Positions 5,661 through 35,922 of a stretch of DNA of 64,000 bases are shown piece after piece. Below the pieces are notes generated by a model. That model searched no databases. It worked only from the letters and a program-made list of their open reading frames with translations, and was not told the origin of the DNA. Source of the DNA: Dyella terrae (GTDB lineage Bacteria; Pseudomonadota; Gammaproteobacteria; Xanthomonadales; Rhodanobacteraceae); contig NZ_CP089414.1 in assembly GCF_022394535.1 (NCBI RefSeq), forward strand, positions 2,232,001 to 2,296,000, given 5' to 3'. The first letter of the stretch is position 1. Each line of letters starts with the position of its first letter. Made by a program: the position numbers and the translations under genes.

Positions 5661-5749
5661 ATACGACTCGTCCACAAGCACGCCGGCCGGCACGCCCTTT
5701 CGCAGCGTATCTGCCGGCACTAAGCAGCGCGATGGAAGCAGGCATACAA

Positions 5750-7006: not shown

Positions 7007-7160
7007 GCCAGCCACGAGCCCACTACCCGCAGGAGCGGGTTGCCTAGCGCCCCCGGCCCGGTCCCGGCTTCGCCCCTCCCGCTCCTTGTTCCTGAATCGT
7101 CACGAATTTTCGGCTGAGACTGACGGTTCCGCCCGGTATCGGGCAGCATCTACACGAGTA

Positions 7161-8010: not shown

Positions 8011-8012
8011 TC

Positions 8013-9281: not shown

Positions 9282-9332
9282 ACAATAGAGCACCATGCTC
9301 GGGGCACTCTCCTGCAAGACGCTCGCAAACCG

Positions 9333-11434: not shown

Positions 11435-12463
11435 ATGAACACCATGACCGCCCCTCATGCCCTTCCCTCGACATCGTCCACCCCCGCAGACCCCATGGTC
11501 GTCAACTGCGTGGCTTATCGCTTCGATGGGCAGCGCATCGGCGACACCAGCCTCGATGACATCAGCGAAGTGCTTAAAGAACCCGACACCTTCGTGTGGG
11601 TGGGGCTGCACGAGCCGGACGAGACCTTGCTGCAGAAGCTCCAGGAAGAGTTCGATCTTCATGATCTTGCGATCGAGGATGCCCAGCACGCCCACCAACG
11701 CACCAAGATCGAAGCCTATGGTGATTCGCTCTTTGTCGTCGTGCAGACTGCACAGCTTGTCGGCGGGCATATCGCCTTCGGCGAGACGCACGTTTTTCTG
11801 GGGCCCCGCTATCTGGTCACAGTACGCCACGGCGCGTCGCTGTCCTACGCTCCAGCCCGACGTAACTGCGAGCATACGCCCGAACTCCTGGCACTCGGCC
11901 CCGCCTACGGTCTGTATGGCGTGCTCGACTTCATTGTCGACAACCTGCTCCCCATCGTGCGCGACTTCCGCGAAGAGCTGCAGGAGCTGGAGAAAGACAT
12001 CTTCTCCGACACCTTCAAGCGCAGCACCATTCGTCGTCTGTACGACATGCAGCGTGACCTGATGACGTTGCGGCTAGCGGTGGCCCCTATGCAGGACATC
12101 ATCAGCCAGTTGGTACGCCAGCACCCGCAACTCATTCCTGACGAACTGCGCGCCTATTTTCGCGACGTATACGACCACGTATTCCGCGTCAACGAATCGA
12201 TCAGCGCCATGCGCGAAATGCTCGCCGCCGCCATCAACGTAAACCTATCCCTGGTCACCTTCGGCCAGAACGAGGTGATGAAACGACTGGCCGGCTACGC
12301 AGCCATGTTGGCCGCCCCTACTCTGATCACCAGCTGGTACGGCATGAACTTCACGCATATGCCCGAACTGGCTGAGCCATGGGCTTACCCAGTAATCATC
12401 GGCGTGGTGACTACATTGGTGGCCAGTATTTATTACGTTCTCAAGCGGGCGAAGTGGTTGTGA
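11435..12463 (+). CDS. corA: CorA family Mg2+/Co2+ channel
   Basis: A 342-residue CorA-type cation channel. A long cytoplasmic alpha/beta and coiled-coil domain is followed by two C-terminal membrane helices. The signature GMN is at residues 303-305 in YGMNFTHMPEL, between the helices. An alternative ATG lies 9 bases downstream (11444). The last codons overlap the GTG start of the following membrane protein. The upstream 130 bases contain a direct repeat of GCACTCTGCC (near 11357 and 11375) of unknown meaning. Confidence 0.9.
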   Translation: MNTMTAPHALPSTSSTPADPMVVNCVAYRFDGQRIGDTSLDDISEVLKEPDTFVWVGLHEPDETLLQKLQEEFDLHDLAIEDAQHAHQRTKIEAYGDSLFVVVQTAQLVGGHIAFGETHVFLGPRYLVTVRHGASLSYAPARRNCEHTPELLALGPAYGLYGVLDFIVDNLLPIVRDFREELQELEKDIFSDTFKRSTIRRLYDMQRDLMTLRLAVAPMQDIISQLVRQHPQLIPDELRAYFRDVYDHVFRVNESISAMREMLAAAINVNLSLVTFGQNEVMKRLAGYAAMLAAPTLITSWYGMNFTHMPELAEPWAYPVIIGVVTTLVASIYYVLKRAKWL

Positions 12464-14164
12464 GTCTAACGAATACGCGGCACCGACTGACCTATGGGCT
12501 AGCCGCCATCACCTTGCTAGTGACCAGCCTCCTCTATGGGCCTGTCATCCACTTCAATTTCGTGTGGGATGATTGGCTGAGCTTTCACGATACACCTTGG
12601 TTGACCCAGGGTGATCAGTGGAAGCATTACATCCTGCGCGACTTCAACAACTGGGCGTACTACTTTAGGCCGCTCGTTGTAGGCTTCTTTACCCTGCAGG
12701 TTCGACTGTTCCATGACCTGCCCGGACCTATGCATGCTGTATCGCTTGCCCTGCACCTGATCGGCATAACCTTGGTTGGAGTTCTAGCGTGGCGCTGCGC
12801 CACGCTATCTGGCATGAACGCAACGCGCCGGACGTGGCTCGTTCCGCTTTGCATGGCAATTTACGGCCTACATCCAGCGCTTATCGAGACCGTCGCGTGG
12901 ATCGGGTGCCAGTTCGAACTTGTATTGATAGTGCTTGTCCTTCTCAGCCTGATCGCAAATCTTGACATCCAGCACCCCGGACTACGCGCAGGCACAGTCG
13001 CGCTGACCTTCTTTCTCGCCGCATGCACGAAAGAGGCAGCCTTTTCGCTTCCACTTCTGCTGGTCTTGTTCGATTGGATCCTGTTCTCAGGCGGAGCGGG
13101 ACAGCGCTTTGTCGCAAGCGTCGAGACCGTCATTCGACGCAACTGGCTCACCTATCTCAGGGATCATGCTTGCGGGCATCGGCTACCTGATTTTTCGGTC
13201 CTGGGCGCTCGGCACAGTTACAACGAATTTCCAATCGATATCCGCTACACCCTCAGACCATCTTTGGGAAATCAGCACCGTCTATCTTCGCTATGTGAAG
13301 ATCATCCTCTGGCCGGTCTCCGGCATGGGGCCTATTCACCCCTATATCCCGCAGGTATTCCAGGGAACACCTTCCCCTGCCGACCTGCTGGTCATTGCCG
13401 TGGCGTTTGTCATTGTCGGAAGCGGGCTGTATTTCACCCTCCGACACAAATCGCCGACCGGCGCCATCATTGTCGGCGCTACAGCAGCGTTGCTTCCCGT
13501 TCTTCACATCATCCCAGTGGCATTCGATAAGAGCCTTTATCACGAACGCTATGCCGCTCTGTCGCTAGCCATCATGTGCGCCATGCTTCCCCTTATGCGC
13601 CGGCCTGCATGGCTGAAGCGGGCCAAACATGGAAGCGTTGCGAAATCCCTGATCGTCATCGTCATGTTCTTCTGGCTGACCTTTTCGATCATCGGTATAC
13701 GCACCCTGCTTCCGAATTGGACAAACGATGAAACTCTATGGCGATGGGCGCTTTCATCCAATCCGCATGACGCCGATGCCAAGTTCAATCTTCTTTCGAC
13801 CTATATAAGGAACAAGGATTACTCTGCTGCCCACAAGCTTGGCGACAAAGTGCTAGCTGACTCGTCCTCCTGCGACGAATGTATGCTCAAAATCGCAGAA
13901 CTGGCGATCTTTCAGCACGAGCCCACCGGGGCCGCCATTGCACTCGAGCGTGTCCGTCATTCGCCCTCTATCGCGAAGAACAAAGACACGCTTCATACTT
14001 ACTACCTGCTGACGGGTGAAATGCTTGCTCAACAAGGCAGCCTGGAGGATGCGGAAAACATCCTCCACGCTGCATTGTCACTGGCACCTCAGGACGCCGA
14101 AACAATAAACGCGCTGAACCTGGTTCTATCGCTGAGGAACCGAGCAACGCAAGCTAACCAATAA
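12460..14164 (+). pseudogene. TMTC-like multi-spanning membrane protein with TPR tail, copy 1, frameshifted as sequenced
   Basis: About 567 residues when joined. An N-terminal membrane helix leads into an acidic loop FNFVWDDWLSFHD (Asp37-Asp38), then about ten more helices and a TPR-like soluble tail (ALSSNPHDADAKFNLLSTYI, GSLEDAENILHAAL). The architecture matches bacterial relatives of eukaryotic TMTC proteins, which are GT-C-fold O-mannosyltransferases; the function here is inferred. The frames 12460-13158 and 13160-14164 are joined by one extra base. Dropping A13159 (CTC-A-GGGATC) gives TYLGIMLAGIGYLIF. The GTG start at 12460 overlaps the corA stop (GTGA). It is paralogous to the copies at 18831 and 20868. 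Confidence 0.7.
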
Positions 14165-16545: not shown

Positions 16546-17913
16546 ATGAGCACGTCTACAACCGCCAACGCGCGGCGCTACTGGCTGATCGCATGGATTG
16601 GCGTCACCCTTTTGGCCCTTGGGCTACGCTGGGCTTATCTGTCACGCATGGAGGTCGATGGCCCCCTTCGAGGCGACGCGGGCCAGTACGTTTCCTATGC
16701 CTGGAATCTGGTCCACCACGGGGTGTTCTCGAAGAACGCCCCCGGTAGCGCGAACGTGGTACCCGACAGCTTTCGGGATCCCGGGTATCCCAGCCTTCTC
16801 GCTGCGCTGATGCTTGTCTCCGACGACTTCAGCCCTTGGTATCACCACGTCCTTCTGTTCCAGGGGCTGCTGGGCGCACTGACAGTCGCACTGCTGATGG
16901 CAGCAGCGCGACCCTGGCTAGGCATGAAGGGCGCCGTAGTCGCGGGTCTGTTGATGGCTATCTGGCCTCACAGCATCACGTTCACTGGCTATCTGCTGTC
17001 CGAGACAGCGACTGCCTTTTGGGTTGCCTTGGGGCTTTTTTTGCTGCAAAGAACCGCTACGCGGAACAGCTTGCCGATCATGGTCGGCTGCGGCATCGCC
17101 TTCGGTATCGCCGCGCTGACCAACGCCGTCATGATTCCGTTTGCGGCGATCTTGGCGAGCATCTTCTGGTGGCGGGGCAACTTCACACGCTCCATGGCGC
17201 TCGCACTGGCCATCGCCTCGCTGCTGCTGCCGATTGCATGGGGCGTGCGCAATGCACAGTTGCCGCCCGCCGAAAGCTCTTCGGGACGTGCCCTGTTGAA
17301 TGCGATACAGGGTTCCTGGCCGGAGTACCACGCAAGCTATATCGCCAGCATCGAGGGTGACCCGAATGCCCAACGCGTTCAGGGCTCCATCCAGCACGAA
17401 TACGATGTCGCGATGACGTCCCGATCCGCTGGCATGGCGCTTGTATCCGCCAGGATGGGAGAGCACCCGCTACGTTATCTCGGATGGTACGCGAGCAAAC
17501 CCGCACTCTTATGGGACTGGGCCATCCGCATGGGCCAGGGAAATATCTATCAGTATGCAGCGCTCCACTCTCTGCTCAACGAACAACCGATACTCAAAGC
17601 ACTTGTTGCGCTGTGCTGGGTGCTCAATCCATTGATCATGTGCCTGGCACTGGCGGGCGTGCTACTGGTGTGGATGAAAGAGCGGGGGCGCTCACCACTA
17701 TCGCTGGCCGTCGCCGTTCTTGCGGTCTACGTCACTGTCGTCTACTCCCTGCTACAGGCCGAACCTCGCTACTCCATCCCGTTCCGGGGCATCGAACTCA
17801 TACTCGCTGTCGAAGCCGTGAGGCAATGTCTCTGCTGGCGCGCGGCCCGAAACCGACGAGCCGGACTGTCAAATTGGTCGAGAACGGCTACCGACGATCC
17901 AACCACGATGTGA
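16546..17913 (+). CDS. GT39-like (GT-C fold) membrane glycosyltransferase
   Basis: A 455-residue protein with about ten membrane helices. After the first helix a periplasmic loop carries an acidic residue in GPLRGDAGQY (Asp44), the position of the catalytic acid in GT39/ArnT-type enzymes, which use polyprenyl-phosphate sugars. Further conserved-looking parts are SFRDPGYPSLLA and the C-terminal EPRYSIPF. The ATG at 16546 follows AAGGGGACAAGG. The open frame extends to 16219, but that stretch overlaps the divergent peptidase and has no ribosome-binding site. It is the first of several putative GT-C enzymes near pilA. Substrate unknown. Confidence 0.75.
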   Translation: MSTSTTANARRYWLIAWIGVTLLALGLRWAYLSRMEVDGPLRGDAGQYVSYAWNLVHHGVFSKNAPGSANVVPDSFRDPGYPSLLAALMLVSDDFSPWYHHVLLFQGLLGALTVALLMAAARPWLGMKGAVVAGLLMAIWPHSITFTGYLLSETATAFWVALGLFLLQRTATRNSLPIMVGCGIAFGIAALTNAVMIPFAAILASIFWWRGNFTRSMALALAIASLLLPIAWGVRNAQLPPAESSSGRALLNAIQGSWPEYHASYIASIEGDPNAQRVQGSIQHEYDVAMTSRSAGMALVSARMGEHPLRYLGWYASKPALLWDWAIRMGQGNIYQYAALHSLLNEQPILKALVALCWVLNPLIMCLALAGVLLVWMKERGRSPLSLAVAVLAVYVTVVYSLLQAEPRYSIPFRGIELILAVEAVRQCLCWRAARNRRAGLSNWSRTATDDPTTM

Positions 17914-18259
17914 CCCTCCAGAGCACTTCGAGACGGGGGTCTCAGAACGCACTGACGCGCAACGTCACTTTTTGCCCTTCACGAGCAAGCGGCACATTCG
18001 CACCGAGACGGGCTCGACAATCCTGCAAGAACGTCAGCTTTGTGAGGTTGCCCGGTCTCGTGACCGTATGCACAATCCTCACACCCGCAACATTGTGGGT
18101 CACCGCCAAAAGGCATCCGTGGCATGTAACGTGCTGCGGATGTCGGGAGCTTCCTGGTCGTTCCAGACCGCAGTAAGGGGGTCCGTTCCCGCCTAGGGGG
18201 AATCGGGACCGGGGCTCAGGGGGCACTACCGGTTAGCTAACCAAAACAGAGGAACCACC
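17914..18259 (+). promoter_or_regulatory. pilA upstream regulatory region
   Basis: No gene is seen here. The region contains a sigma-54-type promoter candidate at 18120-18135, a perfect 12-base palindrome GGTTAGCTAACC at 18231-18242 within the leader, and the ribosome-binding site GAGGAA at about 18250. Near the left end a small hairpin (GAGAC/GTCTC, about 17929-17942) could serve the preceding gene. The leader is C- and G-rich. Confidence 0.55.
18120..18135 (+). promoter_or_regulatory. Sigma-54 (RpoN) promoter candidate for pilA
   Basis: TGGCATGTAACGTGCT. The -24 GG and -12 GC dinucleotides are separated by exactly 10 bases, and 12 of 16 positions or more fit the TGGCAC-N5-TTGCW pattern. 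Predicted transcription would start near 18147, leaving an approximately 110-base leader. Major pilin genes of Pseudomonas and Xanthomonas are RpoN/PilR-dependent, which supports this site. Confidence 0.6.
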
Positions 18260-18724
18260 ATGAAGAACGTGCAGAAGGGCTTTACCCTGATCGAACTGAT
18301 GATCGTCGTGGCGATCATCGCGATCCTGGCCGCCATCGCCATCCCGCAGTACCAGAACTACATCACCAAGTCCCAGTTCTCCGAGTCGCAGACCATTGCT
18401 GACGGCCTGAAGACGCCGATCGTGGAGTACTACAACCAGACCGGCATCTGCCCCACCAACAGCACCACGGGCTTCGTTACGGCTGCCAGCTACAGCGGCA
18501 AGTACGTGCAGCAGGCCTCGCTTAGCGGCTCGGGCTCCGGCGCAACCCAGGCTTGCATCGTCACGGTTACCTTCAAGTCGACCGCCGGCTCGGTGTCCTC
18601 CCCGCTCATCGGCGAGACTGTCGCGATCACTGGCCAGGTCGGCAACGGCGGCGCCGTCACCTGGGCCTGCGCAAGCACCACCATCCTCGGCAAGTACATG
18701 CCCCAGGTCTGCCAGGGCAAGTAA
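18260..18724 (+). CDS. pilA: Type IV major pilin PilA
   Basis: A 154-residue type IVa prepilin. A short leader MKNVQKG is cleaved before Phe ([20 protein letters not shown]), and the Glu5 needed for assembly is present. The head domain has two pairs of cysteines; the last two (residues ~139 and ~151) form the expected C-terminal D-loop disulfide. A Ser/Thr/Gly-rich stretch ([10 protein letters not shown]) could accept O-linked glycans (inference). It is transcribed alone between the sigma-54 candidate and a strong terminator. The pilus assembly genes are 14 kb downstream instead of adjacent. Confidence 0.96.
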
Positions 18725-18756
18725 TCCGTCCGCAGATAGCTATCACATGCTGTACC

Positions 18757-18786
18757 AAAAACCCCTCCGTACGGAGGGGTTTTTTG
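18757..18786 (+). terminator. Rho-independent terminator after pilA
   Basis: The perfect palindrome ACCCCTCCGTACGGAGGGGT (18761-18780) is flanked by four A's and a T tract (18780-18785). It ends the pilA transcript about 35 bases after the stop codon. Confidence 0.93.
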
Positions 18787-18830
18787 TGTCCACATCTCGG
18801 AAGACTCGCCTTAATGCCTTTTACCTGCTC

Positions 18831-20740
18831 ATGACAGCCCGACGCACCAGCTTCCTGCTCGTCGTCACCCTGCTTGCCTGCGCTGCGTTGTACTGGCCGG
18901 CCTTGCATGGCCCCTTTCTTTCGACGACTTCCCCAACCTCGCCGCCATGAACAGCATCGACCACCTGTCGAGCTGGCGCGAGTTGGGAATCTACCTGTCG
19001 CAACCACGAGAATTCCCCGGCCGCCCGCTAGCCATGCTGAGCTTTCTCCTTCAGCGAGGTGACTGGCCAGGCTCACCCTTCCCGTTCAAGTTGGTAAACC
19101 TTGGGCTGCACCTTATGTGCGGCTTACTCGTGTTCCAACTGACCCGGCGCTTGTCCCGATCATTTGGCAAGGACAATGACACGCCACCTCACGTGCGACA
19201 GCATGAAATAGCCGCACTTCTCGCCACGGCGGCCTGGCTGCTGAACCCGATGGAACTTTCCGGCGTGGTGTCGGTGATCCAGCGCATGACACTGCTGATG
19301 GCTTTGTTCGTGCTGCTGGGCCTGCTCGCGTACCTGCGAGGGATGCTGCGTGAGGATCTTTCGATATCGCGGCGCACCGCATGGATGATCATCGGTCTCG
19401 GACTCTGTACGTTGCTCGCCTTCCTATGCAAAGAGAATGGCGTCCTCCTGCCTGTCTATGCATTGACGCTAGACGCCACGGTGCTACGCAAGCCCGTAAA
19501 TCGGCTGCCGAAACCACTGAAATGGCTACGACGCCTACTGATATGGCCCGCTACACTTTTCGTGCTGGGCTACCTCGCACACATAGGATTCATCGCCTGG
19601 GGCCAGCACTACGGTCGTGATTTCACGCTGGGCGAGCGCCTGCTCACCGAGCCACGTGTACTGGCCAGCTACTTGGTCAACACCTTCCTTCCCCGGTTTG
19701 GTATCTATGGGCTTTACCACGATGACTTCGCCGTTTCACACGGTCTGGCATCCACGCCGGCCACCCTTCCCTGCCTTGCATTGCTGATCGCGGCCCTTGT
19801 GGCCGCGTTCGCCTCATTGAAACGCCGGCCGCTACTGGCCATGGCTATCCTGTGGTACCTCGGCGGCCAGTTGATTGAAAGCACTACGGTGATGCTGGAG
19901 CTGTACTTCGAACATCGCAACTACGTACCACTGATCGGCCCGATGATGGCGATCGGCATGGGCTTGACACGGTTGCGCACACCGGTGCAACGCAAGCTCA
20001 CCCAGTTGGCTTATGGCACTTGGCTCGCCGCTTGCTGCCTTGCGACGACCCTGAGTGCGCGGGTCTACGCATCTGAGAATCTGCTCGCCACGGCCTGGTC
20101 ACATGCGCAACCGGGCTCTGCCCGTGCACAAATCTATCTTGCGGGCCGCCTGAGCCAGAACGGTCACTCGGCCAAGGCGCTAGAGATCATTTCAACCCTA
20201 CAGACACGGGAGCCACAGAATGCCGGCCTCGCGGCCAACCGCGTCTACCTCCTCTGCCGCATGGGTACACTCAAGACCGGTGACCTGGACGAGTTGGATC
20301 ATGTGCTGCGCCTCGCTACCTTCGACCGCGCCGCTTACGAGAACATCGAAACCCTGCGTGAACTGGCCACTACCAGACAATGCCCAGCCTTGGATGATGC
20401 TCGCTGGGTAAGCATGACTGGCATCATGCTGGATAACCCCGCCTATCGCGACAACAGCGTCTCCAACGGCTTTCTTCACTACCAGAGGCACCTCTGGGCC
20501 GTGCAGCACGGCGACCTGAACATGGCAATCAGCGAATTGGATGCCGTTTATCAGGCAGACCCTGATGCCAACATTCCCCGCCTACAGGCCAAATACTTGG
20601 TCAGCGCAGGCCTGCGTGCCCAGGCTATCGACGTGTTACGCGACACCGACGCTCGCCGCCTGCCTTTGCTGAGACGCCTGCTGGTGAACGACAAAGCTAT
20701 CAATGAAGAGACCATCGTCGAGATAGAGCACATGAAATAG
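18831..20740 (+). pseudogene. TMTC-like membrane protein with TPR tail, copy 2, frameshifted as sequenced
   Basis: About 636 residues when joined. The first helix (TARRTSFLLVVTLLACAALYWPALHGPFL) reads from ATG 18831. The remainder continues one frame over from about 18920 as FDDFPNLAAMNSIDHLS. One base is missing between 18919 and 18920; adding it gives PFLFDDFPN, matching GGWLFDDFPN of copy 3. The motif HRNYVPLIGPM follows the helices, and a TPR-like tail fills about the last 200 residues. It is the gene directly after pilA. If the frameshift is real only a 600-residue fragment without the acidic loop could be made, from the ATG at 18947. Confidence 0.72.
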
Positions 20741-20762
20741 CGGCTGCCCCAACATCGTCTCT

Positions 20763-20792
20763 GGTAGTCCTGGCGCGCTTGCCAGGGCTACC
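20763..20792. repeat. Intergenic hairpin between TMTC-like copies 2 and 3
   Basis: Arms GGTAGTCCTGGC (20763-20774) and GCCAGGGCTACC (20781-20792) pair with one mismatch around a 6-base loop. No T tract follows, so it may be a weak terminator or an mRNA-stabilising hairpin. Confidence 0.45.
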
Positions 20793-20867
20793 GGATGCAG
20801 GACCATCTTCCGTCATCCATAATCGAAGCACTACAGGGGCTTCCAGCCCCAACCAACAGACAAGCAG

Positions 20868-22931
20868 ATGGTCAACCAGGTAACTTCACCCTCTAACCAT
20901 CGCCAGTGGCAAGGCTATGTGCTGCTTGCTCTAGCGCTTCTGCTCACCATCATCATCTATTGGCCAGGCCTCTCAGGTGGCTGGCTGTTCGACGACTTTC
21001 CCAACATCGTCAACAATCGCGGTGTGCAACCCAGCACGATCGATTTCAGGACTTTGGTTCATGCCGCCCTGTCGGCACCGGCCAGCGATTTAAAGCGGCC
21101 ACTGGCATCGCTCAGCTTCGTTGCGAACTTTGTGGTCAGCGGGCTGGACCCGTGGAGCTGGAAAGTCACCAACTTAGCGATTCACCTGTCGAATGGCCTA
21201 CTGGTGTTTGTTCTGGCGCGCATGCTGTTGCTTCGATCCGTAGCGTCCGTTCCCTCGAGCGTCAAACAGCAAACCACCACCGCAGCATGCATTGCCGGTG
21301 CATGGATGATCCTGCCCGTCAATCTCACTGCGGTGCTTTACGTTGTCCAACGCGAGGAAAGCCTGGCCAACCTCTTCGTCCTGCTGGGCCTTATCGGCTA
21401 CATCGCAGGCCGGACGTCCATGCTGGCGCCAAATCCATCCGTCGCTCACACCGATCGATCGTGGCGTGGCATCGCCCTTTGCAGCCTCAGCATCATCGTG
21501 CCGACCTTTATCGGCGCACTGGCGAAGGAAACTGCCGTGATGCTCCCTCTGTATGCACTAGGCATCGAGTGGGTACTGTTTGCGTCGAAGCAGCAGCACG
21601 AGAATCCACCGCAGCATTCTCGTTTCGACTGGCGCATTGGCGCCCTGTTTATTGTCACGCTGCTGCTACCCATGGCTATCGGCTTAGCTTGGCTTGTACC
21701 CGGACTTCTAAACCCGGCTAACTGGGCAACACGTGACTTCACGCTTGGTACGCGCCTTTTGACGGAAGCACGCGTCGTTGTGTCTTACCTGCTGTGGACT
21801 GTGTTTCCAACGCCGCACATGCTGTCGTTCTATCACGACCAGTATCGTATCTCGTCCGGATTGCTGACTCCCTGGACCACCTTGGCCAGCATGCTGGCAT
21901 TGACGGCATTGCTCGGGCTCGCCGTAGGTGTGCGCCGACGTTTTCCATGCGTTGCGCTGGGCATCCTGTGGTTTCTGAGTTGCCATCTTCTAACGGGCAC
22001 CGTCCTTCCGTTGGAACTGGTCTATGAGCACCGGAACTATTTCGCCAGCGCCAGCGTCATGCTGGCTATCGTTCCGTTGTTGACCGCACCGGCTCCACCG
22101 AGGACGGGGAGTACCAGCAACCCCATCCCTTCAACAGGGGCACTGCCGCTCGCCCTGCCGCGCCATCTTCTGTTCGGCGGATTGGTCGTTTGCTGGGCGG
22201 CACTTACCTTAGTCACGTCCTATGCATGGGGAGACCCCTTGAGGCTGTCGCGCGACCTTGCTTCGCGCGGCCCTGACTCCCCTCGCGCCATGTATGAGCT
22301 TGGCCGCACTTACATCATCTACTCGAAATACGACCCTGCCTCGCCCTACACGAGCCTGGCCTACGACGCACTGGAAAAGGCCGCGGCTCTGCCCGAGTCG
22401 TCCATCCTTCCTCAGCAAGCGCTGATCTTCATGAACTCACGCATGCACCTTCCCCTGAAAGATCGGTGGTGGGACAGCATGATCACCAAGCTCAAGGCAC
22501 GAAAGTCCACGGTACAGGATGAGAGCTCGCTGGAGGAATTGAGCTCTTGCCAGACCATCGGAGAATGCGACCTGCCCAAGCAGCGCATGCTGGAAGCCTA
22601 TATGGCCGCCCTGTCCCACCCGAACCCGAGCGCCCGACTACTCAACATGTACGGTATGTACGCCTGGGAAGTACTGGACGATCACGCACTGGCTCTGCGG
22701 ATGCTACAAGACGCTGTTGCTGCCAATCCGAAGGAACCAGCCTATCGCGTTACCCTGGTTCGCATGCTCACGGACATGAATCGCCTCGAAGAAGCTCGCC
22801 TGGCCCTAAACGACCTACAACCCTTCAACTTGGCAGGACATATGGACCAGGGCATCGGCAGGCTGAATGCTGCCATCGTGGCAAAAGAAAAAGGCAACAC
22901 ATCGCCTACGCAAAACGGCGCGGTCAAATAA
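20868..22931 (+). CDS. TMTC-like multi-spanning membrane protein with TPR tail, copy 3 (intact)
   Basis: A 687-residue protein, the intact member of the three paralogues. The first helix leads to GGWLFDDFPNIVNNRGV (Asp42-Asp43), the acidic loop expected for a GT-C active site. About ten membrane helices follow; the motif VYEHRNYFASASVMLA (around residue 385) is shared with copy 2. The C-terminal 200 residues are TPR-like (SPRAMYELGRTYIIYSKYD, DHALALRMLQDAVAANPKEP). I infer a polyprenyl-phosphate-sugar-dependent protein glycosyltransferase with pilin as possible acceptor, from similarity of architecture to TMTC/GT39 proteins and from location. The exact activity is unproven. Confidence 0.75.
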   Translation: MVNQVTSPSNHRQWQGYVLLALALLLTIIIYWPGLSGGWLFDDFPNIVNNRGVQPSTIDFRTLVHAALSAPASDLKRPLASLSFVANFVVSGLDPWSWKVTNLAIHLSNGLLVFVLARMLLLRSVASVPSSVKQQTTTAACIAGAWMILPVNLTAVLYVVQREESLANLFVLLGLIGYIAGRTSMLAPNPSVAHTDRSWRGIALCSLSIIVPTFIGALAKETAVMLPLYALGIEWVLFASKQQHENPPQHSRFDWRIGALFIVTLLLPMAIGLAWLVPGLLNPANWATRDFTLGTRLLTEARVVVSYLLWTVFPTPHMLSFYHDQYRISSGLLTPWTTLASMLALTALLGLAVGVRRRFPCVALGILWFLSCHLLTGTVLPLELVYEHRNYFASASVMLAIVPLLTAPAPPRTGSTSNPIPSTGALPLALPRHLLFGGLVVCWAALTLVTSYAWGDPLRLSRDLASRGPDSPRAMYELGRTYIIYSKYDPASPYTSLAYDALEKAAALPESSILPQQALIFMNSRMHLPLKDRWWDSMITKLKARKSTVQDESSLEELSSCQTIGECDLPKQRMLEAYMAALSHPNPSARLLNMYGMYAWEVLDDHALALRMLQDAVAANPKEPAYRVTLVRMLTDMNRLEEARLALNDLQPFNLAGHMDQGIGRLNAAIVAKEKGNTSPTQNGAVK

Positions 22932-23014
22932 CACCCGACGAACGACGTTACCTCTTGCCCTTGTTCAGCCCTTCCAGCCGACATGACACCATTCGCAAAC
23001 CATCTTGGCTCACC

Positions 23015-24211
23015 ATGAAAACGATACGTACCAAAGCAGATCTTGCCCTGTACGGCGCCGAGCCAGCTTTCGCCCAACCGCTCCACGTGGGGCGCCCGAA
23101 TATCGGCGACAGGACCGCTTTCATGAGTCGCCTGGATCAGGTATTGGACAATCAGTGGCTCACCAATAACGGTCCGATGGTGCAGGAATTCGAGCGGGAG
23201 ATTGCCGAAAAACTGGGCGTGAAGCACTGCGTGGCCATGTGCAATGGCACCATTGCTCTAGAGATCGCCATTCGCGCGCTCCAGCTCGAAGGCGAAGTCA
23301 TTGTGCCGTCGTGGACCTTCGTTGCCACCGCACACGCGCTGTATTGGCAAGGGATCACCCCCGTTTTCGCGGACATCGACCCCGCCACGCACAACCTGGA
23401 CCCCGCTTCCGTACGATGCATGATCACACCACGCACGAGCGGCATCATCGGCGTGCATCTGTGGGGTCGGGCGGCACCGGTACGGGAACTGCAGGATATC
23501 GCCGACGAACACCGGCTCAAGCTGATGTTTGACGCTGCGCATGCCTTCGGCAGCACCTATCGCGGCGAAACCATCGGCCGATTCGGCGCTTGCGAAGTGC
23601 TGAGCTTCCATGCGACCAAGTCATTCAACACCTTCGAGGGTGGCGCCGTCGCCACCAACGACGACGAACTCGCCGACACCATGCGCCTGATGCGCAACTT
23701 CGGATTCTCTGGATACGACAACGTCATCCACCCGGGCACCAACGGAAAGATGGTCGAGGTATGCGCGGCCATGGGCTTGGCCAATCTCCTTAGCCACGAA
23801 TCGGTGGTGGTGGCCAACCGGGAAAACTACGAGGCTTACCGACAGGCGCTCGCGAATATCCCAGGCGTGTCGTTGCTGCCCTATGACCCGACCGAACAGA
23901 ACAGCTACCACTACGTGGTCATCGAGATAGCCCCCGAGTGTCCGGTCAGTCGGGATGATATCGTGGCAGCTCTGCACGCTGAGAACATCCTGGCCCGCAA
24001 ATATTTCTGGCCCGGGGTGCACAAGATGCGACCCTATCGCGACCTGTTTCCCCATGCTCACCTAATGCTCTCGCAAACGGAGAAGGTGGCTGAATCTGTG
24101 ATCATCCTTCCTACAGGCACCACCCTGCCCGAGTACGCCGTCAACACCGTTGCCGATATAATTCGAATCTGTATTTCGTCAGGCGTTACGGCCGCAAGCT
24201 CGGTCTCCTGA
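23015..24211 (+). CDS. DegT/DnrJ/EryC1/StrS aminotransferase (nucleotide-sugar type), first copy
   Basis: A 398-residue PLP-dependent aminotransferase of the sugar-aminotransferase fold. The Schiff-base lysine is Lys202 in FHATKSFNTFEGG; MCNGTIALEIAIRAL and VPSWTFVATAHAL are family signatures. It would convert a keto-sugar nucleotide to an amino-sugar nucleotide. The ATG at 23015 is used; the open frame reaches back to 22547 inside the preceding gene and is a shadow. It is the first gene of a plus-strand trio with an oxidoreductase and an ATP-grasp enzyme. Confidence 0.9.
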   Translation: MKTIRTKADLALYGAEPAFAQPLHVGRPNIGDRTAFMSRLDQVLDNQWLTNNGPMVQEFEREIAEKLGVKHCVAMCNGTIALEIAIRALQLEGEVIVPSWTFVATAHALYWQGITPVFADIDPATHNLDPASVRCMITPRTSGIIGVHLWGRAAPVRELQDIADEHRLKLMFDAAHAFGSTYRGETIGRFGACEVLSFHATKSFNTFEGGAVATNDDELADTMRLMRNFGFSGYDNVIHPGTNGKMVEVCAAMGLANLLSHESVVVANRENYEAYRQALANIPGVSLLPYDPTEQNSYHYVVIEIAPECPVSRDDIVAALHAENILARKYFWPGVHKMRPYRDLFPHAHLMLSQTEKVAESVIILPTGTTLPEYAVNTVADIIRICISSGVTAASSVS

Positions 24212-24318
24212 GCGTCGACGATGACACTATCGAAGTCATATCGGCGGGACCAGATACTTCGTTCTTGATCCGGCTCAGGGCCGCCAGCACCACAACCGAC
24301 TGTCAGCGGGATACGTCC

Positions 24319-25366
24319 ATGGAAAAGATTTCGCTCGTCGTCGTTGGTCCCGGGCTTATTGGCAAGCAGCACATCCGCCTGATCGGGGAGAACCCACGCT
24401 GCGAGCTCTGCGCCATTGTTGCCCCGGACCATGAAGCCAATCATGAGATCGCTCGCGCACAAGGCGTACCGATCTTCCAGTCACTCGAAGAATGTCTGCG
24501 CACTAAGGCCGTGGATGGAGTGATCATCGCCTCCCCCAACGAGTTCCATGCTGCACAGGCGGCTCTGTGCATCCAGGCCGACATTCCGGTACTCATTGAA
24601 AAGCCAATAACAGTGACGGTGGACGAAGGTGTGATCCTCGTCGATATGGCCGAACGCAGAAACGCCAAGGTAATGGTCGGTCATCATCGGGCGCATAGCC
24701 CGCTCCTGACGCTGGCGCGCGGCATCATTGAAGAAGGTCGCCTTGGACGCCTGGTAACCGTCATGGGCAGCGCCCAGTTTTACAAGCCTGCGCACTATTT
24801 CGAAGCAGGTCCTTGGCGTCGCGAGCCGGGTGGTGGCCCGATACTCATTAACCTGATTCATGAGATCGGCAATCTGCGCAGCCTGTGTGGAGAAATCACC
24901 GCAGTGCAAGCTATGTCGTCCTCGGCCGTGCGCCACTTTCCGGTCGAAGACACCGTGACGATCAACTTCGCTTTTGCCAACGGCGCACTCGGCACCTTCG
25001 TGCTCTCGGATACCGCCGCCACGGCGAAGAGCTGGGAGCAAACCTCGCGCGAGAATCCTGAGCTATCCGACCTACGCGGATGAAGATTGCTACATGATCG
25101 CTGGAACGGCGGGCTCCCTCGCCATACCCACGATGCGCCTCAAATCCTATGACAGCGACAAGGAGCCCTCATGGTGGGTTCCATTTCGCGAAGAGGTCCT
25201 GGACATTCGACGCGAAGACCCATTGACGCGCCAGCTTGAACATTTCGTGCAGGTCATTCAGGGACAATGCGCTCCGCTCGTTTCGGCGGCGGACGGTCTG
25301 CGCAATCTGATGGTGACGGAAGCGGTGCGCCATTCGGCCACAACACAAAAAACCGTATACCTCTGA
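24319..25366 (+). pseudogene. Gfo/Idh/MocA family NAD(P)-dependent oxidoreductase, frameshifted as sequenced
   Basis: About 349 residues when joined. The N-terminal Rossmann fold has VVGPGLIGKQHIRLI, and the EKP motif IEKPITVTVDEG is typical of the family. The C-terminal alpha/beta domain has GGGPILINLIHEIGNL. The frames 24319-25060 and 25062-25366 are joined by one extra base. Dropping A25061 (CCTG-A-GC) gives ENPGYPTYADEDCYMIAGT, a plausible family sequence. Such enzymes oxidise or reduce sugar C3 positions ahead of an aminotransferase, which fits the gene just upstream. Confidence 0.8.
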
Positions 25367-25376
25367 GGCAATACAC

Positions 25377-26528
25377 ATGGCCAAGGTGCTGCTCGTTGAC
25401 ACCAACTTTTCTTCCGGACCGATCTACCGGGAACTCGCTTCTTTGGGGCATAACGTGCATGTCGTCGGGAACAACCCCAACGACTGTCTGGCCAAAGTTT
25501 CACCGAACTACCACAAACTGGACTACTCGAATCTCGACGCACTAAAGTCGCTGATCGACGGCGAGGGATTTGATTTCCTGGTACCCGGTTGCACCGACCG
25601 CTCGTACCTGTCCTGTGTAGCCGTCGGCAGCAACCAGTTCCCAGGGCTGGACCAGCCTGACAGCTGCGAAGCCATCTTCAACAAGAGCCGATTCCGCCAA
25701 CTGGCGGAGCGCATCGGGCTTCCTGCGCCCCAGCGCTTCGCCGATGGCAGACACCCGCCGCATACCCCTGTCATCGTCAAACCTGTCGATGCATTCAGTG
25801 GAAAGGGGATCACCGTCCTGCGCGAGAATGACGAGCAGGGGTTCGAACGAGCGGTCGCATTAGCCCAGGTGGCATCCCCCAGTGGCGGGTATCTTGTTGA
25901 GGAATTTGTCGAGGGACAACTCCACAGTCATAGCGCATTTGTCCAGGGCGGCAAGGTCGTGCAGGATTTTCTGGTGTTGGAGGATGGCTCCGCCAACCCA
26001 TTCGTCGTCGACACTAGCTGCGTTGTGCCAGATGCGCCCGCGGACATGCTGGCGCGTCTGCGCGCGTGCGCGGAAGACATGGCGGCCGAACTTGGCGCGG
26101 TCGATGGCCTGCTGCACACACAGTTCATCAGCCAGGGCAGCGATTTCAGGTTGATCGAAACGACACGACGCTGCCCGGGTGACCTGTACAGCCAGTTGAT
26201 CGAGCTCAGTACAGGCTACCCATACGCACGAGCGTACATATTGCCCTTCCTTGGCCTGCCGATCGAGGAGCACTATGACAATCTGCGCTGGACCCCCATT
26301 CTGCGACACACCGTTACGCTGAAAGTAGCGCAAAGTTTCGCGTATCTGCATTTCAAAGCAGCCGTGCAGATCGAGCGCTGGGTACCCCTCAGCCTTGTCG
26401 GTGACCAGCTGAGCCCGAGCCCGCAAAGCCGCATTGGAGTGATGTTCTGCCGGGCCACCGACACACAAGAACTGGATCGCATTTATCAGACCGCCCTTCG
26501 GCGCGATCTGTACGAGATTCATGCCTGA
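25377..26528 (+). CDS. ATP-grasp domain protein
   Basis: A 383-residue ATP-grasp enzyme. A pre-ATP-grasp Rossmann-like N-terminus (MAKVLLVDTNFSSGPIYREL) is followed by HTPVIVKPVDAFSGKGITVL (ATP lysine), GGYLVEEFVEG and the metal-binding FRLIETTRRCPGDLYSQL. These enzymes join a carboxylate to an amine or thiol through an acyl-phosphate. Next to an amino-sugar aminotransferase and a sugar oxidoreductase it may attach an amino or carboxylic acid to the amino sugar; that is inference. Start 10 bases after the oxidoreductase stop, so co-transcribed. Confidence 0.82.
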   Translation: MAKVLLVDTNFSSGPIYRELASLGHNVHVVGNNPNDCLAKVSPNYHKLDYSNLDALKSLIDGEGFDFLVPGCTDRSYLSCVAVGSNQFPGLDQPDSCEAIFNKSRFRQLAERIGLPAPQRFADGRHPPHTPVIVKPVDAFSGKGITVLRENDEQGFERAVALAQVASPSGGYLVEEFVEGQLHSHSAFVQGGKVVQDFLVLEDGSANPFVVDTSCVVPDAPADMLARLRACAEDMAAELGAVDGLLHTQFISQGSDFRLIETTRRCPGDLYSQLIELSTGYPYARAYILPFLGLPIEEHYDNLRWTPILRHTVTLKVAQSFAYLHFKAAVQIERWVPLSLVGDQLSPSPQSRIGVMFCRATDTQELDRIYQTALRRDLYEIHA

Positions 26529-26750
26529 GCGACCCTACAAATAACGGCCAGACACCCCGTGGCTCCCGTGGCCGGCTCGCGCAAGAGTGACACTCATAAG
26601 CTTCTCGCCCTGCTTCCCGGCTGATGCGCCAACCTGTCTGCGATACTAACCGCAACCATGATGCAGCACTCCCTGCTCAAGGCTGACCGGGTCGGCGTTG
26701 CTTTCTCTCAAGGTGACAACCGGTAGCCCTTCCCCGATGCCAAGCTGCTC

Positions 26751-28034
26751 CTATCCTTGCACCGGCCGGGGAGGTGAAAGGTTCGCCTTACGCAGGAACC
26801 ACCAACAGCAACCCGCCATAAACACCTCCGTGGCCAGCAAGGACCAGGCAGCGCCTGCCGCCCCCATACGGGAATCCAGCAACAGATTGAGCACAATGAT
26901 CAGCACAAATCCGAGGGCTTCTATACAGACTCGCGACATCTGTCGATCAAAAGCTGTCAGACCCGTCGCAGCGGCCTGATGCAACGCATACAAGACTGTC
27001 CAGGGTGCCAGCAACAGCAGGTAATGCGATGACTCTTCGAAGCTAGCCCCAAAAACCCGGGGCATCCAGGGTGAAACCAGCACGGCAAGCAAGGCGGCCA
27101 TCACGGCGTAGCCCAGCCCGGACAGGGTGACAATAATCAGTGTTCTAGAGCCTGCCGGAGAACCGTGCTGCGCGAACAACCTCGGAAGTGCGGCACCTAT
27201 CAGTGCAGACACCGGCAACACGAAGACGCTCATGACGCGGAAAGCTGCCGTGTAAGTGCCTGCCACCGTTGCACCGAGCATCTGCAGCAAAAGCACTTTG
27301 TCTACTTCCAGATAACTGGTGCTCACCAAGTTACCCACCGCATAACGAGAACCATCGCGCAACGTCGCGCGCATCGGCAACCGCCGCCGCCAGCTCGGCA
27401 AGCCACTTATGCTTACGATGACGCCATAGGCCACCAACGCGCCGATGACCGAGCCACCAAAATGCAAGCGCGCAACGTGTGTCGGCGTACCCTCTACGCC
27501 CAGCAGCAAACCCGCCACCACGCAAAGCAGCCTGGACACAGGTACCAGACACATGCATACGGCCCCTGCGGCGCCACGGTCCAGTGCAATGCAAAGACCG
27601 GTGGCTACCTGCGCTAGCGGCAACGCAACCAGCTCAGAGAGGGCCAACAAGCCCATTGAGGGGTAGTCAATGTGACCCGGCAATACAAGACTCACGCCGA
27701 GCATGAGCAGGCAGACCAACGCTGTTCCGGTCGTAAGCACCTGAAGGATAGCTTCTGCCCACGCGCCCTTGGATTCACTCGGGGTCCGAGCAACGCGCTG
27801 CGTCAGCACTACGGCAATGCCCCAGCCCGACAACGGTGAAATGAGAGTCGCAGCAGCCACGGATCCGGCAAATAGTCCGTAGCCACTCGCGCCCATCCAG
27901 TGGGAAAGTACGAGCAGGTAACCTGCTTGCACTACTGCACGTATGGCCAAGCCAATAGTGGACAAGAGCGCGTTACGCCCTAGCCGACCGACGCCCAGGC
28001 GGCCCAGTAGGCCTTTGAAGATTCCCACTTCCAC
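26751..28034 (-). CDS. Lipopolysaccharide/oligosaccharide flippase (MOP superfamily, Wzx-like)
   Basis: A 427-residue protein with 12 or so membrane helices and the Wzx/MATE-like N-terminus (LGRNALLSTIGLAIRAVVQAGYLLVLSHWMGASGYGLFAG). Such proteins flip polyprenyl-linked sugars across the inner membrane. The GTG start immediately follows the stop codon of the upstream GT2 gene, and AGGGG lies 11 bases upstream of it, so the two are coupled. It is the last gene of the minus-strand sugar cassette and converges with the ATP-grasp gene across a 220-base gap that shows no clear gene or terminator. Confidence 0.85.
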   Translation of the reverse strand: MEVGIFKGLLGRLGVGRLGRNALLSTIGLAIRAVVQAGYLLVLSHWMGASGYGLFAGSVAAATLISPLSGWGIAVVLTQRVARTPSESKGAWAEAILQVLTTGTALVCLLMLGVSLVLPGHIDYPSMGLLALSELVALPLAQVATGLCIALDRGAAGAVCMCLVPVSRLLCVVAGLLLGVEGTPTHVARLHFGGSVIGALVAYGVIVSISGLPSWRRRLPMRATLRDGSRYAVGNLVSTSYLEVDKVLLLQMLGATVAGTYTAAFRVMSVFVLPVSALIGAALPRLFAQHGSPAGSRTLIIVTLSGLGYAVMAALLAVLVSPWMPRVFGASFEESSHYLLLLAPWTVLYALHQAAATGLTAFDRQMSRVCIEALGFVLIIVLNLLLDSRMGAAGAAWSLLATEVFMAGCCWWFLRKANLSPPRPVQG

Positions 28035-29081
28035 TTAGTGGTCAACCCCTGGCATCAGCTGCTCGTCAGATGCAAGTCTTTGGCGACGCCATACCTTTCG
28101 GCGCAACCACATCGTTTGCCAACCGCCCTTGAGGAAAGCCAGAGGCCCAAAATGCGTCCGCATGTCGCGAAGGGCGAAGCGTGCCGTGCCGGCATCGCAC
28201 GCACTGATGGCCCACAGTAGAAGCCCTACCGATACCTCCCAGCGATATGCCGTCGGATAGTCGGCCCTAGCACTGAAGAAATCACGCGCGTCGGTATCGA
28301 ATTCGAGGCTCGATCGGAGAAAGTTCAGCCTAGCCTTTTTTCCCGAGCGTAGCGCAGAAAGTGGACTTTCCCGATAAACCGCCATCGCAGAAGGTACATA
28401 GGCCACCTTCCAGCGGGAGGTGACATAAGCCGCCAGTACCGTGTCGCCAAATCGATACTCGCGCCGAAACACGCCCGATGCCTTGCACGATACGACAGTA
28501 CTGCGGCGCAGCAACACAGTGCACGTACGCAATATCTTGGGGAAGTGGAACGCACTAAAGAGACGCCCTTCCAGCAGCGTAAAAGGTACTCGGCGATGCA
28601 CGGAATGGCGCCAATCTACCGTCCACCCGTTCGATCCGGGTCGACTGCGCAACCAGTCGGTATGCACGATGCCAACCTCCGGATCGTGGACGATGAGCGC
28701 CACCTGGCGAGCAAGCTTGTCACGGGCACACCAGTAGTCATCCCCTTCGCAGAACGCCACGAATTCGCCGCGCGCCGCATCGAAGGTACGCTGACCATTG
28801 GCGTTCATCCCAACATTAGCTGCAGAGTAAAGAATGCGGATAATGTGGGGATAACGGCGCTGGTACTCCAGCGCAATCGCGCGGGTGGCATCCTTTGACG
28901 CGTCCTCGCCGATGATTAGCTCGATAGGAAAGTCACACTGCTGTTTGACAACTCCTTCGATGGCCTCCGCTAGATAGTCAGCGTGGTTATAGGTGATCAT
29001 CAAGACGCTCACCAGCGGCCTCGGAGGCAGCTTGTCGGCATCACTGATTTCCTCAACCTGATCGGGTGCTACTGCTGCCAT
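28035..29081 (-). CDS. Glycosyltransferase family 2
   Basis: A 348-residue GT-A glycosyltransferase. VSVLMITYNHADYLAEAIEGV and ELIIGEDASKDATRAIALEYQRRYP are the GT2 nucleotide-sugar motifs, followed by CEGDDYW in place of the usual DxD. There are no strong membrane segments, so it probably acts at the cytoplasmic membrane face on a lipid-linked acceptor. It is followed directly by the flippase gene; the upstream gap to the epimerase gene is 145 bases. Confidence 0.85.
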   Translation of the reverse strand: MAAVAPDQVEEISDADKLPPRPLVSVLMITYNHADYLAEAIEGVVKQQCDFPIELIIGEDASKDATRAIALEYQRRYPHIIRILYSAANVGMNANGQRTFDAARGEFVAFCEGDDYWCARDKLARQVALIVHDPEVGIVHTDWLRSRPGSNGWTVDWRHSVHRRVPFTLLEGRLFSAFHFPKILRTCTVLLRRSTVVSCKASGVFRREYRFGDTVLAAYVTSRWKVAYVPSAMAVYRESPLSALRSGKKARLNFLRSSLEFDTDARDFFSARADYPTAYRWEVSVGLLLWAISACDAGTARFALRDMRTHFGPLAFLKGGWQTMWLRRKVWRRQRLASDEQLMPGVDH

Positions 29082-29226: not shown

Positions 29227-30345
29227 TCATGCTGCCCCGCATTCTTTTGGCCGTCCATACTCAGCGAAGTAGTGGGCCATCGTGTACGAGGGACCTTCGT
29301 CATTCCAGACCATCGACGGCCTGCGCAAAGCCTTCACACTGTCCTCCAGCACGTATCGGAGTACGCCACCGGGTACGTCCTTCTCCATCAATGCATTAGC
29401 ACCAAGCCCATCGGGTCGCTCCGTTCTGGCACGCATGACAATCGTGGGAATACCCAGCGCGGCAAGTTCCTCCTGGTTCGATCCACCATCGGTCAACACG
29501 CACGCCGACCCGGCAGCCATGCAGATGAAATCGCGATAGCCCATGCGTGGCAAGAGCTTGACTCGGCCAGATGCGGAAAGCCTGTCTAGATACCCTTCCG
29601 ATATCAGTCGACCGCGCGTCGCTGGATGCAGCACGAAATTCACCGTGCGCACCTTCGCCAGGTTTTCCACCAGTTCTACCAAATGGCGCAATCGCCTGGA
29701 TTCGTAGAGATTCTGGAAGCGGTGCAGTGATACAAGAACATAGGCATCGCTGGCGTCCTGCGCCATCGCCGATGCTCCTGTCAGACGCACGGCGTCAATG
29801 ATAGAGTTTCCGCGCGTGTCGATCACTTCGCGATGGCCACGACGACGCATGAATTCGGCAGCCTCGGCGTTAGGACACATAGCGATATCCGTCATGCGAA
29901 ACACCATGCGTCGCACCATTTCCTCGGGAAAGGGATCGAACACCCGTCCCGAGCTGAGGCCACTCTCGAGATGCACGACGGTAGCGCCACATCGCCTCGC
30001 CGCGTAGGCCGCGACTAGCGTCGAAAGGGTATCGCCATGGACCAGCACAAAAGCTCGGTCGGTGCTTTCCCTGATGAGTTCTCTAAGCTTGCGCTTCATG
30101 CCCAGGTAGGCCCGGGGGAGCCACCGCAACAGGGACAGAATGGTCGAATGCTCCTCCGCTTGCATGATCTGCTCCTGCGGCGAGCGAATACCAAACTCGT
30201 CGATCAGGTCTTGCATGGTCTCTCTGTGCTGTCCCGTCATAAGAAGCATCACCGGGAGCCCCTGTTTCTCGCAAGCAACGATCACAGGAGCAACTTTGAT
30301 CAGCTGCGCCCTCGTGCCTACCGCAAAGATCAGCGACCTAGGCAT
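29227..30345 (-). CDS. UDP-N-acetylglucosamine 2-epimerase family protein (WecB-like)
   Basis: A 372-residue non-hydrolysing UDP-GlcNAc 2-epimerase homologue. Visible motifs are GTRAQLIKVAPVI, MTGQHRE, LVHGDTLST, HLESGLSSG (the family has HxEAGLRS), TRGNSIIDAV, TDGGSNQEEL and ARTERPDG. It would make UDP-ManNAc or a derivative; the changed active-site neighbourhood (ESGLSS) leaves room for a different substrate. The start is the ATG at 30345, two bases after the TGA of the upstream GT2 gene (TGAGCATG). The longer open frame to 30429 lies inside that gene and is not used. Confidence 0.85.
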   Translation of the reverse strand: MPRSLIFAVGTRAQLIKVAPVIVACEKQGLPVMLLMTGQHRETMQDLIDEFGIRSPQEQIMQAEEHSTILSLLRWLPRAYLGMKRKLRELIRESTDRAFVLVHGDTLSTLVAAYAARRCGATVVHLESGLSSGRVFDPFPEEMVRRMVFRMTDIAMCPNAEAAEFMRRRGHREVIDTRGNSIIDAVRLTGASAMAQDASDAYVLVSLHRFQNLYESRRLRHLVELVENLAKVRTVNFVLHPATRGRLISEGYLDRLSASGRVKLLPRMGYRDFICMAAGSACVLTDGGSNQEELAALGIPTIVMRARTERPDGLGANALMEKDVPGGVLRYVLEDSVKALRRPSMVWNDEGPSYTMAHYFAEYGRPKECGAA

Positions 30346-30347
30346 GC

Positions 30348-35876: not shown

Positions 35877-35889
35877 GCTCTCGTTGTCC

Positions 35890-35922
35890 GGGCCCCTCTC
35901 CCGCCGGGAGGGGGGCCTTTTT
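35890..35922 (+). terminator. Hairpin terminator between pilC and pilD
   Basis: GGGCCCCTCTCCC and GGGAGGGGGGCC pair around a GCC loop and are followed by five T's. The ATG at 35924 lies immediately after the T tract, so the downstream ATG at 35948 is the more likely pilD start. Confidence 0.75.

Follow-up and report, generated by a model that had tools for sequence, protein, structure and literature searches.

Predicted GT-C membrane proteins with TPR tails form a candidate pilin glycosylation cassette beside pilA in Dyella terrae

The window analyzed here, a stretch of 64,000 nucleotides from Dyella terrae (contig NZ_CP089414.1, positions 2,232,001 to 2,296,000), carries a type IV pilin gene, pilA, followed by genes for two large membrane proteins, termed paralogues A and B, with a tail of tetratricopeptide repeats (TPR). 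As judged from sequence and predicted structure, it is quite probable that pilA, A and B constitute a pilin-accessory cassette that serves to O-glycosylate the type IV pilin. This reading draws on five computed observations, namely a GT-C glycosyltransferase fold with a TPR tail, conserved residues of catalytic type, linkage to pilin genes, co-occurrence with a family 2 glycosyltransferase (GT2), and linkage of the type of A to the type of PilA. The initial annotation of the window had proposed a candidate pilin glycosylation system at this place, and the predicted fold, the pilin linkage and the GT2 co-occurrence all support that proposal. The genes at the center of the argument are the following.

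18260 to 18724, plus strand: pilA, major type IV pilin (PF00114, E 2e-15; PF07963, E 1e-10)
18831 to 20740, plus strand: paralogue A, predicted GT-C protein with TPR tail, specific to the pilin type; its frame breaks after the first membrane helix and before FDDFPN
20868 to 22931, plus strand: paralogue B, predicted GT-C protein with TPR tail, intact, 687 amino acids, tracks species rather than pilin type
12460 to 14164, plus strand: paralogue C, TMTC-like, with WDDW and YHERYA, in two frames (12460 to 13152 and 13151 to 14164)
30348 to 31202, minus strand: GT2 of the ArnC/dolichol-phosphate-mannose-synthase type, predicted polyprenyl-phosphate-sugar synthase (from PDB matches)

The link to pilin genes is seen at three taxonomic depths. 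Searching with B in one genome per species gave 107 relatives, of which the best 80 were used as a locus set; a same-strand prepilin-type open reading frame (ORF) lies upstream in 73 of these 80 loci; the other seven have less than 5.5 kb of upstream sequence. The commonest order is pilin, pilA, A, B, and in five loci without A (L026, L037, L038, L047, L066) B follows pilA directly. In the order sample of 61 genomes, 34 matched, 29 of them (the window's own included) below the E value of 1e-30 that defines presence of the family; the weaker matches (G012, G015, G027, G041, G049) were counted as without. A PF00114 pilin lies within 10 kb in 23 of these 29, directly upstream within 1 kb in 18; of the six remaining genomes, four (G013, G054, G002, G029) have an adjacent prepilin-motif ORF that PF00114 missed, and a fifth (G052) is cut by a contig end upstream. 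The class sample of 114 genomes, with a family cut-off of 1e-15, gave 34 matching genomes besides the window's own, each from a different family, and a pilin gene lies directly upstream, within 1 kb and on the same strand, in 25 of the 34. Nine genomes remain: in five, the contig stops no more than about 1.7 kb upstream of the match or a tandem copy, and the other four are genuine exceptions. The link of the GT-C family to pilin genes is far beyond chance. The survey of pilA neighborhoods that the initial annotation had suggested thus bears out its expectation, and its pilA call is confirmed by the PF00114 match. Separately, two loci carry three prepilin-type ORFs side by side, adjoining a glycosyltransferase gene (L071, 5997 to 7821; L084, 7738 to 9229).

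The same family travels with a second gene. Among PDB sequences, the GT2 of the window is matched by ArnC at E 9.6e-15 and by dolichol-monophosphate-mannose synthase at E 7.7e-11. At a cut-off of 1e-60 in both samples, GT2 was found in 26 of the 28 order-sample genomes that carry the GT-C family, against 0 of the 32 that lack it, and in 29 of 34 class-sample genomes with the family as against 0 of 79 without. The class sample was drawn separately for the pilin and GT2 surveys; the genome handles that occur in both agree, and the genomes without a match are not all listed. Both genes share a contig in 22 order-sample genomes, always within 12 kb and in six within 2 kb on the same strand; in the class sample, 25 genomes have both on one contig, and in 24 of these the GT2 gene comes directly after the GT-C gene, on the same strand. 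The Fisher values ignore shared ancestry, but the co-occurrence also holds inside families f1, f2, f4, f9 and f10, and in f12 two of the four genomes with the family lack a GT2 match. In five loci of one family the row consists of just pilin, GT-C and GT2. In the window itself, the GT2 gene lies 7.4 kb from the GT-C genes on the opposite strand; its homologues (70-91% identity) adjoin pilB, sometimes with a DegT gene between, in all 16 loci that reach pilB, and homologues of pilB, pilC and pilD keep the same order downstream of it in relatives. This pairing of GT-C and GT2 genes is what a pathway for synthesis and transfer of a lipid-linked sugar would look like, with the GT2 activity predicted by homology.

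Structural models and conserved motifs further specify what A and B may be. Profile comparison with hhalign establishes homology of B with A (E 5e-102) and of B with C (E 2.9e-17). B combines FDDFPN, KETAVM and YEHRNYF with its TPR tail, where TPR_19 scores above the Pfam cut-off and the B model has helical repeats at residues 457-676. Two models, one of B and one of a relative of A (the latter with a GT-C fold and a predicted local distance difference test score, pLDDT, of 86) contain about 12 long helices ahead of the TPR tail, counted on the models, rather than the roughly ten first estimated. Both align with GT-C glycosyltransferases (Pmt, oligosaccharyltransferase and ArnT), plus the TPR tail, and the top structural match of the B model is the Pmt1-Pmt2 complex, from a VIA-align run over Foldseek's own list. 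The structure prediction that the initial annotation had recommended for the 687-residue protein thereby returned GT-C enzymes including Pmt and ArnT, and the TPR-like tail and conserved acidic first loop that it had described are both borne out. Taken with the acidic first external loop, the predicted fold places A and B in the GT-C superfamily.

The motif counts depend on how the sequences were chosen. In a recount of DD and EHRNY with ORFs picked by BLAST alone, comprising 74 A (72 loci plus the window) and 81 B (80 loci plus the window), the acidic DD pair is present in 73/73 A and 80/80 B that cover the region, one A and one B being cut by a contig end; EHRNY variants occur in one A (L008) and two B (L078, L080). 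An earlier count over 67 loci and the window kept a locus only if A and B carry EHRNY and the pilin fits its motif, so the EHRNY figures of that 68-locus count are circular; A2 likewise came from motif-bearing loci. As a side observation, L055 has a tandem pair of A-type paralogues between pilA and B (5705 to 9924).

A further line of evidence concerns which genes change together. Protein distances were compared over 68 loci (67 plus the window), with the first 30 aligned positions of PilA dropped. The correlation is 0.88 between PilA and A distances and 0.18 between PilA and B distances (overall range for PilA-B 0.18-0.22), and the partial correlation of PilA and A given B is 0.88, a value reached in 0 of 2000 permutations. 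An S9 peptidase gene served as species marker and was usable in 57 of the 68 loci, where the correlations are 0.89 for PilA-A, 0.11 for PilA-S9 and 0.58 for B-S9; the partial PilA-A correlation given S9 and B is 0.89 (0 of 999 permutations). Likewise, the type of A is shared with the nearest PilA neighbor in 56/57 loci, and with the nearest S9 neighbor in 31/57. These correlations therefore indicate that pilA and A move together between species and that B stays: the pilA-A pair behaves like a cassette that can be swapped. For the five loci lacking A, the closest A-linked PilA lies at a distance of 0.51 (L026) to 0.67, compared with averages of 0.40-0.49 inside the three large types; L026 is borderline, since its 0.51 is near these within-type means.

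Two predicted control signals lie around pilA.

18120 to 18135, plus strand: sigma-54-like promoter site upstream of pilA (exact pattern match)
18757 to 18785, plus strand: intrinsic terminator or attenuator between pilA and A (fold -22.2 kcal/mol, z -4.07)

The sigma-54-like pattern occurs six times in the window at up to one mismatch, against 8.9 expected, so the site of the window alone is not significant. Across relatives, the pattern stands upstream of pilA in 35 of 72 loci, compared with 0.02 expected from mononucleotide shuffles, and 33 of the 35 sites lie at 150-170 base pairs. In 55 of 73 loci, an intrinsic terminator follows the pilin gene within 140 bases; the number expected from shuffles is 0.6. 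A consensus scan of 17900 to 21000 gave no sigma-70-like site and missed the pilA terminator, which a separate terminator script found.

In the mechanism that we infer, which covers enzymatic activity, acceptor, donor, order of steps, the separate roles of A and B and that of the TPR tail, the GT2 would join a sugar to polyprenyl phosphate on the cytoplasmic side, a flippase would turn the lipid-linked sugar toward the periplasm, and A and B would there pass it to membrane-held PilA. The acidic first loop of A and B would serve catalysis, and the periplasmic TPR tail may hold the pilin. A would be matched to the pilin type and exchanged along with pilA, which suggests that it recognizes or modifies variable parts of the pilin; the constant B may add a second sugar, extend the first one or act on a pilin site shared by all. 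With the sigma-54-type promoter and the attenuator behind pilA, the enzymes would be made at far lower levels than pilin. As to the sugar, an N-acetylated hexose would be in keeping with the WecB-like epimerase gene that overlaps the GT2 gene; among the loci of relatives compared, a WecB-like gene adjoins the GT2 gene only in L024, and in L091 another epimerase gene of the same Pfam family follows. As to the flippase, a MOP flippase is encoded in the sugar island beyond B (by Pfam). GtrA was rejected as a linked flippase, with three copies in the genome and none in the window. Near a pilin, GT-C, GT2 unit in L091 (9581 to 10477) lies a PF03706 membrane protein with BLAST relatives in L110, L112 and L113 and none in L111, which is a candidate flippase.

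Several observations weigh against a pilin glycosylation cassette or narrow it. One order-sample genome (G009) has no pilin in 6 kb upstream, on a contig that ends 2.4 kb downstream, and the four exceptions of the class sample (G074, G091, G136, G158) carry the family with neither a nearby pilin nor a contig end to explain it. A GT2 match is missing in 5 of 34 class-sample and 2 of 28 order-sample genomes with the family, and a search of the window for a GtrA-type flippase (PF04138) found none, the three copies lying elsewhere in the genome. The E of the KE motif is retained in only 28 of 68 A, and Foldseek alone gave no match for the B model at E<=0.001 and ranked TPR proteins first. Furthermore, B is weakly tied to PilA, with a partial correlation given S9 of 0.19, reached in 1 of 999 permutations. 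Inside the largest type (39 loci), r(PilA,A) is 0.34 and r(PilA,B) 0.30. The excess of A is therefore gone within this type, which points to an exchange of whole types, and physical linkage may explain part of it; linkage together with cassette exchange could account for the PilA-A tie without residue-level coevolution, a notion set aside on these figures. Within the same type, the TPR part of A is tied to PilA with a partial correlation of 0.28 and the membrane part with 0.23, so that the TPR part is not clearly stronger.

Three other explanations have to be weighed against this background. A and B could be oligosaccharyltransferases that move a whole lipid-pyrophosphate-linked oligosaccharide, made by the neighboring variable island, onto PilA. 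The models align about equally well with oligosaccharyltransferases (yeast OST, AglB, PglB) and with Pmt/ArnT, and an island encoding aminotransferases, a MOP flippase and GT2 enzymes indeed lies between B and the pilB side. The co-occurring partner, however, is an ArnC/dolichol-phosphate-mannose-synthase-like GT2, which fits a monophosphate-linked single sugar; the island varies among loci, whereas the GT2 beside pilB is kept wherever pilB is reached (16/16), and the five loci of one family do with pilin, GT-C and GT2 in a row. Transfer en bloc is therefore regarded as unlikely. Quite unlikely, too, is that A and B act on a surface polysaccharide or another envelope protein, with their place beside pilA owed to shared regulation or a recombination hot spot. 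O-antigen-like sugar genes in the window, the four class-sample genomes without a nearby pilin and the restriction of the A-PilA linkage to differences between types would fit such a role, which is harder to reconcile with the 25 genomes, all from different families of the class, that have a pilin directly upstream, and with the absence of any polysaccharide gene inside the five minimal rows.

TPR proteins are common in pilus biogenesis, and A and B might, like TfpY, serve as pilin chaperones or assembly factors without catalytic activity, their TPR tail doing the work. TfpY, encoded after pilin and an attenuator, helps assembly and lacks the phage defense that pilin glycosyltransferases give (PMC11841053). 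About 12 long helices in a GT-C fold and conserved DD and EHRNY would be unexpected in a chaperone, as would co-occurrence with a donor synthase, and this explanation is very improbable.

The preferred reading, a glycosylation cassette, has a close counterpart in the pilin-accessory cassettes of Pseudomonas aeruginosa (tfpO, tfpW, tfpX/Y/Z). In both, the accessory gene comes right after the major pilin gene with an attenuating terminator between, and the accessory type is tied to the pilin type and exchanged with it as a cassette; the gene arrangement here shows these features. TfpO and TfpW glycosylate the P. aeruginosa pilin (PMC11841053, PMC12369383), and the terminator after the pilin gene has been suggested to determine how much accessory protein is made relative to pilin (PMC11841053). 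The loci described here differ in having two large TPR-tailed GT-C proteins, one type-specific and one constant, and an ArnC/dolichol-phosphate-mannose-synthase-like GT2 as partner; TfpW uses D-arabinofuranose from genes of another genomic island. The PglL gene also occurs next to a gene for a pilin that is its predicted substrate, a prediction supported by knockout for ComP of Acinetobacter baylyi (PMC3643930). Adjacency of enzyme gene and (here predicted) pilin substrate is thus shared, while PglL and TfpO are of the Wzy_C type, for which A, B and the pieces of C gave no match at E<=0.1.

A second set of comparisons concerns the enzymes themselves. TMTC1-4, the animal O-mannosyltransferases of CAZy family GT105, likewise consist of a membrane GT-C part followed by a TPR tail. 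Their loop 1 holds a DD and an RP motif, a KE(T/Q)xxT-like and an ERxxY-like motif occur as well, and full-length homologues exist in prokaryotes and are not well characterized (PMC7801869). Motif by motif, the DD of M1, the R of RP (both in loop 1) and the K of KE are present here, and the counterpart of ERxxY (M7) is YHERYA in C and EHRNY in A and B. Unlike TMTC1-4, these are bacterial proteins with pilin rather than cadherins as predicted acceptor, and DUF1736, which lies between TM7 and TM8 in TMTC, is unmatched at E<=0.1 in A, B and the pieces of C and is not among the 25/26 families listed for 16 relatives of C; membership of TMTC proper was set aside on this ground. Searching PDB sequences with B by phmmer gave no match at E<=1, and a B profile search gave weak TPR and chance-level matches only. 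In Pmt systems, a donor synthase of the GT2 kind (dolichol- or polyprenol-phosphate-mannose synthase) works with a GT-C enzyme that acts on proteins and has a MIR domain as a feature. The pairing of GT2 and GT-C and the best match of the B model point the same way, with a TPR tail in place of MIR (no MIR Pfam match here) and a gene beside a dedicated substrate as differences.

Three-component systems (GtrA/GtrB/Gtr; GT136) combine a polyprenyl-phosphate-sugar synthase with a periplasmic GT-C enzyme (PMC11127046). They resemble the present case in that a predicted synthase of this kind is encoded with the GT-C protein, and differ in acting on O antigens with a flippase gene of their own, compared with a predicted pilin acceptor and no GtrA-family flippase in the window. 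If the TPR tail binds the substrate, the flagellin transferase FlmG offers a parallel: it has a flagellin-binding domain, reportedly of the TPR type. This N-terminal domain sets its specificity (PMC7591256). Strains of X. vesicatoria have two glycosyltransferase genes between pilB and pilC (PMC10333488), and a term search of a paper on Xylella pilus genes (PMC9956873) gave no glycosyl- or tetratricopeptide terms. The initial annotation had called the association of TPR-tailed proteins of this family with a pilin uncharacterized, and searches of open-licence PubMed Central papers listed no description of it, which within that scope is not proof of novelty.

The unit accordingly stands a fair chance of being a distinct class of pilin glycosylation. 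A more specific proposal is that the widespread gammaproteobacterial unit of pilin, TPR-tailed GT-C and GT2 represents its own class of pilin O-glycosylation, operating in the manner of eukaryotic Dpm1/Pmt, with single sugars from polyprenyl phosphate rather than transfer en bloc, and that in Rhodanobacteraceae it is split into a swapped A and a constant B, so that pilus surface chemistry could be exchanged by cassette transfer, probably under phage pressure; this we advance tentatively, as somewhat short of an even chance. A few bacteria are known to glycosylate their pilins, with unrelated enzymes. If the glycosylation reading is right, many more environmental and host-associated bacteria would sugar-coat their type IV pili through one enzyme family that resembles an animal O-mannosyltransferase and is encoded beside its own substrate and donor synthase. 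Bacterial TMTC-like proteins would then have a substrate that can be tested and their TPR tails a possible function; naturally occurring enzyme-pilin pairs would form a series in which specificity and phage receptor variation could be studied, and the compact units of pilin, GT-C and GT2 would be useful for glycosylation work in the laboratory.

The window sits inside one 5.36 Mb contig, and the nearest named relatives of B come from Dyella; the S9 peptidase differs by 5% from that of two Dyella strains (L031, L082). From left to right, the order is C, S9 peptidase (minus strand), a PMT_2-like gene, the sigma-54-like site, pilA, the terminator, A and B. Beyond B come the sugar island (to about 29.1 kb), the WecB-like and GT2 genes (minus strand), a second DegT gene and then the ORFs at 32734 to 36805 (plus strand), which we take by sequence recognition to be pilB, pilC and pilD. 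The remaining features are listed below.

16546 to 17913, plus strand: GT39/PMT_2-like membrane protein, optional member (PF13231, E 4.7e-5, just under the Pfam cut-off)
22688 to 29081, strand unspecified: variable sugar island with DegT aminotransferase, Gfo/Idh oxidoreductase (frame-split), ATP-grasp protein, MOP flippase and GT2 (Pfam)
29227 to 30429, minus strand: UDP-GlcNAc 2-epimerase-like protein (WecB), overlapping the GT2 gene (PF02350, E 8.4e-48; TIGR00236, E 1.5e-49, below its cut-off)
31332 to 32504, minus strand: second DegT/DnrJ aminotransferase (PF01041, E 1.8e-123)

The stretch between B and the pilB side (22688 to 29081 in the window; loci L003-L082) varies strongly among species in its aminotransferases, flippases and GT2 enzymes and looks like an O-antigen-type island. 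A GT39-like protein had been annotated upstream of pilA; a PMT_2-like protein is present there, with the weak, sub-threshold family match given above. In the alignment of this protein, 11 of the 16 members (itself included) match PF13231 at E<=0.01, and its relatives, 16 ORFs, occur in 15 of 80 loci.

Neither A nor C reads as one open frame in the window. The two large paralogues annotated after pilA are both present with FDDFPN, and B is intact; in A, FDDFPN is in the frame of the ORF at 18947 to 20740, and the ATG (18831) and first membrane helix lie in another. The third paralogue, placed at 12460, is homologous to B as described, though split in two frames and with YHERYA instead of HRNY. 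The Gfo/Idh/MocA oxidoreductase gene of the sugar island (24319 to 25366) also reads in two frames, as do two genes of housekeeping type, a presumed CorC-like gene (7100 to 8012, in a three-frame reading) and a presumed TesA-like esterase gene (60130 to 60960, minus strand). Relatives are unbroken: 16 relatives of C from 14 loci are each a single ORF, as are the listed A genes of other loci. Because three other genes within 64 kb are split likewise and relatives are unbroken, the breaks in A and C are probably assembly or sequencing errors rather than decay; decay and phase variation were set aside for the same reason, and no long simple-repeat tract was seen by eye at either break.

Directly after pilD lies a gene for an EptA-like phosphoethanolamine transferase (36802 to 38538; PF00884, PF08019). 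Homologues of it sit between A and B in L029 (8167 to 9825) and L050 (8025 to 9593), which suggests phosphoethanolamine decoration of pilins in some strains.

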